Assembly: GCA_009937615.1 (NCBI GenBank)
Contig: JAACFB010000029.1
Span: forward strand, 1 to 48,989
From: Gammaproteobacteria bacterium
GTDB lineage: Bacteria > Pseudomonadota > Gammaproteobacteria > Steroidobacterales > Woeseiaceae
Reading direction: 5' to 3'
DNA: 48,989 nt
Positions 10,649 through 12,790 of this stretch are shown piece by piece. The notes beneath the pieces were generated by a model, which searched no databases, was not told the origin of the DNA, and saw nothing but the letters and a program-made list of their open reading frames with translations. Position 1 is the stretch's first letter. Each line of letters starts with the position of its first letter. A program made the translations under genes and the position numbers.

Positions 10649-12790
10649 TCAGTAGATATCTTTCAACGTATTGTAAACGTTGAACTTTCCAGTCGGCGTG
10701 ACGACCTCAGGCCCTTTTATGACTGCCTTCAGTTCGCGCGTCTTGTCGTCCACGACTACGATTGCGGACTCCTGCTCCTTGCCGCTCCAGACCGAAAACC
10801 AGACTTCGTCGCCCGCTTTGTTGTATTCCGGCTGCACGACGCGCTTTGGACCTTCTCCCAGTTCGGCCCACTCAGCGATCGGCAGTCTTTCGAAGCCGGC
10901 TTCGAGATTGTTGATGTCGAACACAGCGACGCTCTGGCTGATCGATTCATCCGGGTTCAGCGGCGCGTCCACCCAGAGGTTGTTCGAGTGTGGATGCGAT
11001 TTGACGAACAGCGAGCCACCGCCCATTCCCTGCAGAACGCGAACCGCTTTCCAGGCGTGATCGGGGTTGCTCTGCGGGTCAGTGCCGAGAAACGTGATAT
11101 TTGCGTTGCCCAGCGCACTGGTCACCCAGACGGGCCCATATTCAGGGTCCAGGAGATTGGCTCCGCGGCCGGGATGCGGCGTCTTCTCCACATCGACGAG
11201 TGCTTCCAGCTCACGGTCATGCGAATCGACGACGGCCACCTTGTCCGACTGGTTGGCTGCGGTCAGGAAGTAGCGCTTGCTGCGGTCCCAGCCACCGTCA
11301 TGCAGGAACTTCGCCGCGCCGATGTCGGTAACTGCCAGGTCATCGATATTGCTGTAGTCCACGAGCAGGATATGCCCGGTCTCCTTGACGTTGACGATGA
11401 AGTCGGGGTGCTCATGCGATGCGACGATCGCCGCTACGCGCGGCTCGGGATGGTATTCCTGTGTGTCGACCGTCATACCGCGGGTCGAGACAATTTTAAG
11501 CGGCTCGAGCGTGTCGCCGTCCATGATGACGTACTGTGGCGGCCAGTAGGCGCCGGCAATCGCATACATGTCCTCGTACCCTTCGTACTTCGAGGTCTCC
11601 ACGGAGCGCGCTTCGAGACCGACCTTGATCTGCGCGACCGTGGCCGGCGGATTCATGTACAGGTCGACCATGTTGATCAAAGCGTCCCGGCCAATCGTGA
11701 ATACGTAGCGGCCTGAGGCAGAAACGCGCGAAATGTGCACGGCGTAACCCGTTTCGACGATGCTGACGATTTCCTTCGTATCACCATCGATGATTGCGAC
11801 CTGGCCCGAATCTCGTAACGTGACCGAGAAGAAATTGTCGATGTTGCGGTCGTGCTGTGGCTTCTCCGGACGATCTGCAGGCTCAACGAGAACCTTCCAG
11901 GTAGACCGCATATCGGCCATGCCGAATTCGGGCGGCGCCGGTGGCTCCTGCTGCAGAAACCGCGCCATGATGTCGATTTGCTCGGGCGTCATTTCACCCG
12001 AGGTTCCCCAATTCGGCATGCCGGCCGGAGAGCCATAGGTGATCAGCGCTTTGAGATAGTCGGTACCCTTCTCCTTGGTGATATCCGGGGTCAGCGCCTT
12101 ACCCGTCGCCCCCTTGCGGAGTACGCCGTGACAGCCGGCACAGCGTTCAAAATAGAGCTGCGTCGCCGTCGAGAATTCAGCTTCCGAAAGCACCGGGCCG
12201 CCGGCGCTCATGAGCTGCCGGGCCTGCTCTGCCGGGATTGCGGACGGCGTCCCCTGGTACTTCAGTTCACCCTCGGTAGCACCGGGATGCCGCTGACCGG
12301 CCGCCCGGTCTGCCTGGCCGAGCTCCGCTCGCAGGGCGGCGACTTCTTCCACGCTGACCGCCGCGAGGTCATTGCCCCAGGCGCTAAAAACATACGTCAA
12401 CGCGGCCGCAAGATCCTCGTCGGTCAGGTGACCCAAACTGGGCATGACGCCGTTGTAGTCAACACCGTTGACAGTTATCGGGCCAGAAAGGCCGAATAGT
12501 GCCGCACTCATGACCTTTTTGCGGTCGCCCGTCAAATAGTCGGAATTGGCCAGCGGCGGGAATGCCCCTGGCAGGCCCTGCCCGTTCGGCTGATGACACG
12601 CCGAGCAATTGGCAAGGTATACGGCTTCGCCTTTAGCGGCGAGTTCGTCGATGCTCGCTGCCGCTACTTCGGCCGTGTGCACGGCCGTATCGTCGGCGCC
12701 CGGCGCGGTGTCGTCGGACTGTTGCGAGCAGGCCCCGAGCGACAGTCCGATAACCGGGACTATCAGTAGGCTTAATCGTCTTAGTTGCAT
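10649..12790 (-). CDS. nirS: Cytochrome cd1 nitrite reductase with extra N-terminal cytochrome c domain
   Basis: Reduces nitrite to nitric oxide on the periplasmic side. I start it at ATG 12790 (MQLRRLSLL), preceded by AGGAG, which gives 713 residues against roughly 560-600 for ordinary NirS. Order: lipoprotein leader with lipobox LGAC (Cys21); a class I cytochrome c (about 45-155) with CSACH (62-66) and likely Met116 in YNGVMPSLG; the usual NirS cytochrome c (about 200-285) with CAGCH (217-221) and Met258 in GMPNWG; the d1 propeller (about 295-713). Key d1 residues are present: proximal His352 (GYAVHISR), catalytic His459 (ASHEH) and His539 (TPHPGRGAN). It should be an active enzyme. The added domain resembles the cytochrome tail fused to some copper nitrite reductases and may be a built-in electron donor. 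No d1-synthesis genes are nearby. Confidence 0.93.

Follow-up and report, generated by a model that had tools for sequence, protein, structure and literature searches.

A cytochrome cd1 nitrite reductase with two cytochrome c domains before the d1 domain was described in Chloroflexi by Schwartz et al. in 2022 (PMC8756737), and this C1-C2-NirS architecture was called unique to that phylum. The same architecture was placed in NirS clade 1g by Pold et al. in 2024 (PMC10999283), and the accessible portion of that report states that the nirBEFJNT genes partly tell NirS clades apart and describes no d1-less organisms. A cytochrome module homologous to the C1 analysed here, with a presumed donor role, is present in the three-domain copper nitrite reductases RpNiR (PDB 3ziy) and PhNiR (PDB 2zoo), and the part of PMC13324648 available indicates that the tethered-donor role proposed for the cytochrome of RpNiR has since been questioned.

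Synthesis of heme d1 uses NirD/L/G/H, NirJ, NirF with NirC, and NirN, according to the accessible parts of PMC7242693, PMC13168839 and PMC3694632. The last of these deals with the transfer of heme d1 from NirN to NirS, and titles cited in it indicate that apo-NirS can be loaded with the cofactor in vitro. A literature search limited to CC-licensed PMC papers found no paper on the uptake of heme d1, and the excerpts of PMC7201279, PMC6423088 and PMC11651109 held nothing decisive. Two Woeseiales papers mention nirS and give no domain structure in their accessible parts, and one of them (PMC7451513, in excerpt) reported nirS transcripts of Arctic Woeseiales at every depth; no description of a C1-fused NirS for the Woeseiaceae lineage was found in the literature searched.

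The window, which is the whole stretch of 48,989 nucleotides analysed here, belongs to a gammaproteobacterium of the Woeseiaceae and harbors a nirS whose product likewise carries two cytochrome c domains before d1. Carriers in Gammaproteobacteria and in an acidobacterium contradict the restriction of C1-C2-NirS to Chloroflexi. The Chloroflexi genes likewise had no other denitrification genes within 20 kb, two neighbourhoods having been compared (PMC8756737). The two C1 modules may differ in their kinship, the Chloroflexi C1 grouping, by its published description, with cytochromes of Nitrospirae and Nitrospinae (PMC8756737) and the C1 of the window with NirK tails; no Chloroflexi-titled locus occurs among the best 80 C1 relatives.

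Architecture of the nitrite reductase

The nirS gene occupies positions 10649-12790 on the minus strand, with its ATG at 12790, and encodes 713 amino acids, comprising a signal sequence with lipobox (residues 1-21), the C1 cytochrome (51-137), a linker (about 160-195), the C2 cytochrome (207-279) and the d1 propeller (316-708). These domains were matched by Pfam as Cytochrom_C, Cytochrome_CBB3 and Cytochrom_D1, respectively, with E values from 2e-17 to 9e-145, so that a c domain is followed by the Cytochrom_D1 propeller as in NirS, and residues 176-713 align with NirS of Pseudomonas aeruginosa at E 1e-260. Pfam and alignment together confirm the original prediction of a NirS with an added N-terminal cytochrome c domain here, in which the strand had been left unnamed. 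That domain had been called a third cytochrome; it is a third domain of the protein, but the cytochrome c domains are two. An AlphaFold2 model (pLDDT 75.6, pTM 0.69) displays the helices of both cytochrome domains and the propeller, with a poorly ordered linker at residues 163-181 (below 50), and a Foldseek search with it returned NirS structures at all of ranks 1-26.

The lipobox cysteine Cys21 and the motifs CSACH (62-66) and CAGCH (217-221) lie exactly where they had been predicted. By alignment, the d1 and active-site histidines are H352, H497 and H539, corresponding to His182, His327 and His369 of P. aeruginosa NirS; His352 and His539 had been named correctly, but His459, named alongside them, is a conserved residue outside this trio. 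All three aligned histidines are invariant in the 59 fused and 25 ordinary NirS compared, and R326, R368 and W668, which we take to be d1-pocket residues, are likewise identical across them. Only four columns of the cd1 region are class-specific, defined as more than 85% one letter in the 59 fused and more than 70% another in the 25 ordinary sequences, and the ordinary NirS of loci L036-L060 share 67-74% identity with the window protein over cd1. Judged by these alignments, the d1 pocket of this cd1 NirS is unchanged, and the enzyme is predicted to be a heme d1-containing nitrite reductase. It shares the C2 and d1 domains and the active-site residues with P. aeruginosa NirS (PDB 1bl9/5guw), from which it differs by the extra N-terminal C1 and linker, by the lipobox, and by the lack of any heme d1 genes found in its own genome (89% complete). 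The six identical pocket residues, the scarcity of class-specific columns and the close identity to ordinary NirS make it very improbable that the d1 site holds another tetrapyrrole (heme b or siroheme-like) and that the protein is a different kind of oxidoreductase, a reading that would account for the lack of a NirD/L/G/H domain from all but one of the 76 fused genomes.

The lipobox reads LGAC and is preceded by a hydrophobic stretch, as in lipoproteins. A serine at position +2 of a lipoprotein points to the outer membrane, and the serine found there in the window NirS indicates that its anchor is probably in that membrane. The lipid anchor that had been foreseen is thus predicted for the window protein and for the Woeseiaceae-type loci but fails as a general trait. 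A crude pattern recognized it in 19 of the 26 loci of this type, L081-L106, and inspection by eye added the other seven; over 66 N-termini (61 fused NirS and five other C1 proteins) the pattern matched 27. By this count the anchor appears to be, for the most part, a Woeseiaceae trait.

Kinship and origin of the C1 module

The C1 module (residues 40-160; 12311-12673, minus strand) is a class I cytochrome c of the NirK-tail type. Its Met116, invariant in 37 fused NirS, is the likely axial ligand. Against the PDB, residues 40-161 matched NirK tails best (E 7e-30 to 2e-28), followed by Thermus c552 at about 1e-21, and a chance cytochrome match was ruled out by the Pfam and PDB relatives. In a quick tree of 109 C1 domains, those of NirS and NirK were split with 82% support from the tails of sorbosone dehydrogenases and of a CcoP-like protein and from one free cytochrome, and 15 of 17 NirK tails formed one group (86%) within the larger set of NirS and NirK modules (87%); this grouping is favoured by the choice of sequences, since they were picked by similarity to the NirS C1. 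The predicted kinship with NirK tails is borne out by this tree, by the PDB ranking and by the 15 NirK tails among the best 80 relatives. Of the further proposal that two unrelated nitrite reductases captured the same donor module, the sharing is upheld, and the tree, with only 111 columns, is too short to give the direction of capture.

In RpNiR and PhNiR the module is C-terminal on an unrelated copper enzyme, whereas in the window protein it is N-terminal on NirS. The same order also has NirK with a C1-type tail (L062, L063), and in locus L149 a C1-like cytochrome frame (3-494) lies directly 5' of a NirK (498-2066) which already has a C1 tail. C1-like cytochrome tails were also seen on sorbosone-dehydrogenase-like proteins, one of them encoded on contig 76 of the window's own genome (L067, 2185-4173) and others in L066 (by Pfam) and L068 (by C1 match). 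It is plausible that C1 makes NirS independent of NirM/NirC, a putative role in line with the donor function expected in the original prediction.

A probable relic of the fusion was found in two genomes of the same genus that lack NirS, G019 and G024, where a free lipoprotein C1 is encoded at L107 9001-9333 (= L065, 153 aa) and at L110 5189-5545 (= L061), respectively, and receptor, C2-d1 part and porin are all absent. The free C1 sits between the same kinase and aminotransferase/UspE flanks as the cassette in relatives, of which L084, L086 and L098 have SirB, receptor, C1-NirS and porin at this position, and it is sister to most Woeseiaceae NirS C1 domains (86%, C1 tree). Because other families also have the fusion, the simpler reading is that receptor and C2-d1 part were lost together.

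Distribution of the C1 fusion

The order provided 99 genomes, the window's own included, of which 41 gave a NirS match, and 37 of these 41 have a single open frame from C1 to the end; in the other four (G007, G036, G048 and G091) NirS is split or cut at contig ends, and G091, whose C1 is unseen, was excluded from the fused count. Within the genus, a NirS match was obtained in 35 of 61 genomes. A profile search of genome contigs with the C1 alignment, using one peptide pattern and keeping the best 80 relatives, retrieved 62 C1-NirS (61 plus L133, counted as fused despite a broken frame), 15 NirK with a C1 tail and three C1 with neither. Among these 80 are C1-NirS of Marinicella pacifica, M. litoralis, Wenzhouxiangella sediminis, Pseudidiomarina donghaiensis, P. 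mangrovi, Idiomarina aquatica and Lysobacterales MAGs, and, outside Pseudomonadota, of Acanthopleuribacter pedis (Acidobacteriota). A frameshift or assembly error, named as a finding that would undo the prediction, is excluded by this recurrence across genomes of the order and named isolates.

Of 369 genomes sampled evenly across the class, 68 gave a NirS-like match, and five of these have the same C1 fusion (G000, G264, G422, G428 and G438), and the NirS of G457 in this sample has an extra domain unrelated to C1; among 398 genomes of the phylum, 50 gave a NirS match and only the window's own match starts inside C1. In a quick cd1 tree the C1-fused NirS adjoin each other, the ordinary NirS L037 stands at their edge, and L069 with its own extra domain falls separately (L001, = L002, was left out of the trees and identical sequences were merged).

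Broken reading frames occur in the fused nirS of L109 (8824-10947), L111 (8884-10212) and L133 (8872-10995), which are pseudogenes or sequencing errors. Other multi-cytochrome NirS were also encountered, namely L069 (1876-3879), with an unrelated N-terminal c domain, and L070 (2088-4316), L071 (1637-3838) and L073 (783-3602), with three CxxCH motifs each and, in L073, Ig/cadherin-like domains as well; the genomes of these four loci have PF17805 matches.

Absence of the heme d1 pathway

The missing heme d1 genes and the neighbouring receptor were both overlooked in the original prediction. With domain PF17805 as the marker for NirD/L/G/H, a match was present in one of 76 genomes with C1-fused NirS (0/30, 0/21 and 1/25 in three sets) and in 107 of 111 genomes with other NirS (4/4, 58/59 and 45/48), where G106, searched twice, enters the total once and some genomes were reached via their loci, with completeness unstated for these. 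An overlap check found no identical NirS d1 part between the handle loci and the fetched loci of the G-numbered genomes. NirJ scored over its cut-off in none of 30 fused genomes against 4/4 others, and NirF/NirN-like proteins besides NirS (>300 bits) were found in 0/26 fused against 2/2 other genomes, and in 1/12 against 14/15 in a further set. The window's own genome (89% complete) gave no match to PF17805, NirJ, NirF or NirN, and the loss of d1 genes extends to the acidobacterial isolate. As judged from these gene searches, the sampled C1-fused genomes are nearly always without the genes known for heme d1 synthesis.

NirD/L/G/H turned up in a single fused genome, G851 (L157), which in addition encodes NirF, NirN and another NirS and has no receptor next to its fused nirS. 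The four other-NirS genomes without PF17805 are G106, G511, G530 and G817; the first three have NirF/NirN-like proteins and are therefore probably incomplete assemblies. G817, with an ordinary NirS and rated 100% complete, gave no NirD/L/G/H, NirF or NirN match, and the 19.5 kb of sequence retrieved from it contains no receptor of this kind, so that d1 genes can be lost outside the C1 setting as well. Its ordinary NirS (L214, G817:C9, 9045-10790) is followed by NapC/NirT, ethylbenzene-dehydrogenase-like and radical SAM genes.

The adjacent TonB-dependent receptor

A gene for a PhuR-like TonB-dependent receptor (12817-15066, minus strand) precedes nirS, with 26 bases between the two, and its true start is probably near 15018. 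Both the barrel and the plug were matched (PF00593 and PF07715), the score against TIGR01785 was 297 bits (cut-off 316.85), and the nearest solved structure is the heme/hemoglobin receptor PhuR (PDB 8the) at E 1.5e-75. Most linked receptors share a GFRAPP..D.NIG..P.F...PNP.L box.

By a family profile, 57 of the 62 fused loci among the best 80 C1 relatives have the receptor no more than 3 kb from nirS, against none of 20 ordinary nirS loci, 17 of them long enough. The five exceptions are L127, L128 and L157, which have no adjacent receptor, and L121 and L152, whose contigs end too soon; the 57 include L145 and L155, whose adjacent receptors are different ones (26% identical), and Pfam was used to examine nine fused loci lacking a receptor of the window type. 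The profile was built from the receptors of these same loci, and a profile-independent check therefore matters. With the window receptor as sole query, 13 of 17 fused genomes had their best whole-genome match beside nirS; for G066 this was true of the second-best match, 1.7 kb away, in G466 the match lies elsewhere in the genome, and in G062 and G087 (the latter one contig, 99% complete) the whole genome gave none at 1e-20. The same query gave one match in total in 17 other-NirS genomes, far from nirS. Within the genus, the receptor (at least 49% identity, with at most 11 candidates scored per genome) was present in 35/35 genomes with a NirS match and 0/26 without, two of the 26 having a paralogue at 35-37%; this co-occurrence may represent few events, because receptor and nirS are neighbours. 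In a receptor tree, twelve unlinked paralogues clustered together (98%), separate from the linked receptors; L145 and L155 were labelled there as unlinked though their own differing receptors adjoin nirS.

The receptor lies upstream on the same strand in 38 of the 57 loci, upstream and divergent in 13, downstream on the same strand in four and downstream on the opposite strand in two (among the best 80; L132 was reassigned by locus map, and L127 was left out as non-adjacent). Four arrangements in several families, together with the loss of d1 genes in the acidobacterial isolate and the position of the receptor's best match mostly beside nirS in distant genomes, argue against the view that C1 simply replaces NirM as a tethered donor and that gene losses and receptor have only hitch-hiked through the history of the lineage. 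Despite the precedent of the three-domain NirK with its cytochrome tail as presumed donor (PMC13324648, in the part available) and the fact that fused NirS fall largely together in the cd1 tree, this view is considered quite improbable.

A heme-type receptor would also fit bacteria that make their own heme d1 by an unknown, non-homologous route and use the receptor to supply ordinary heme or iron for a heme-rich enzyme. The conserved d1 pocket means that d1 must come from somewhere, the nearest solved relative is a heme receptor, and four fused genomes, namely G062, G087, G466 (L127) and G852 (L128), lack both d1 genes and this receptor beside nirS, which speaks for own synthesis and against import; the contigs of G853 and G854 end too early to show adjacency. 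In heme receptors a histidine in the plug or between FRAP and NPNL presumably binds heme. The window receptor differs from PhuR at both places, with no histidine at the aligned plug position or within its FRAP-NPDL stretch, and unlike that of PhuR its gene is linked to nirS. Moreover, the known d1 gene sets are absent together, and receptor linkage tracks the loss of d1 genes rather than NirS as such, given its absence from the 20 ordinary loci. Own synthesis is accordingly regarded as unlikely.

Import of heme d1 as the favoured explanation

The missing d1 genes and the adjacent heme-type receptor suggest that the cofactor is taken from other microbes. The best explanation, held to be somewhat probable, is that the locus forms a self-contained nitrite reductase cassette in bacteria that are auxotrophic for heme d1 and import d1 made by their neighbours. 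Other denitrifiers would release heme d1 or a late precursor, and the PhuR-like receptor would take it across the outer membrane; that heme d1 is its substrate is suggested by genomic linkage, its closest solved relative taking heme. No inner-membrane transporter would be needed, because apo-NirS is already in the periplasm, and since NirS works there the receptor alone could supply the cofactor. The periplasmic NirS would bind heme d1 without NirF or NirN, and electrons would pass from the cytochrome pool through C1 and the heme c of C2 to d1, where nitrite is reduced to NO. In Woeseiaceae the lipid anchor may hold the enzyme close to the receptor, and the tethered donor C1 would make the cassette portable.

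The broader proposition, that heme d1 is a shared good which a widespread group of bacteria, from marine sediment and elsewhere, cannot make and import via a dedicated nirS-linked TonB receptor, with C1 marking the transferable, self-sufficient cassette of receptor and reductase, is put just on the favourable side of even. Given the close relationship among fused NirS and the adjacency of receptor and nirS, the genomes represent far fewer independent events than their number. Uptake of heme d1 by bacteria with fused NirS, if true, would be the first uptake system for this cofactor. NirS is a main denitrification marker, and if abundant sediment bacteria such as Woeseiaceae depend on neighbours for its cofactor, its presence would not prove that an organism alone reduces nitrite; sediment denitrification would rely on the exchange of a cofactor, much as vitamin B12 is needed in some metabolism, and failures in pure culture would be simply explained. 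Meanwhile, the published Chloroflexi-only claim is corrected, and two unrelated nitrite reductases are found to share one donor module.

Other features of the locus

A porin-like outer-membrane protein (Alginate_exp) is encoded at 9339-10622 on the minus strand, 26 bases downstream of nirS, and its gene is present in many, not all, fused loci. The cassette is flanked in many Woeseiaceae loci by a PAS/histidine kinase/receiver hybrid (15561-17474, minus strand), which also flanks C1 in the two C1-only genomes, and on the other side by a UspE-like universal stress protein (8324-9286, plus strand). No FNR-type box was found in the stretch upstream of the receptor, and with two mismatches allowed at most, the window as a whole gave 19 matches where 12.7 would be expected. 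A cbb3 oxidase cluster (CcoN, CcoO, CcoP, CcoG/FixG and a P-type ATPase) lies at 17642-24987 beside a PAS kinase, and positions 7129-7743 encode a FixJ-like regulator; the cluster, the kinase and the regulator together suggest one low-oxygen locus.
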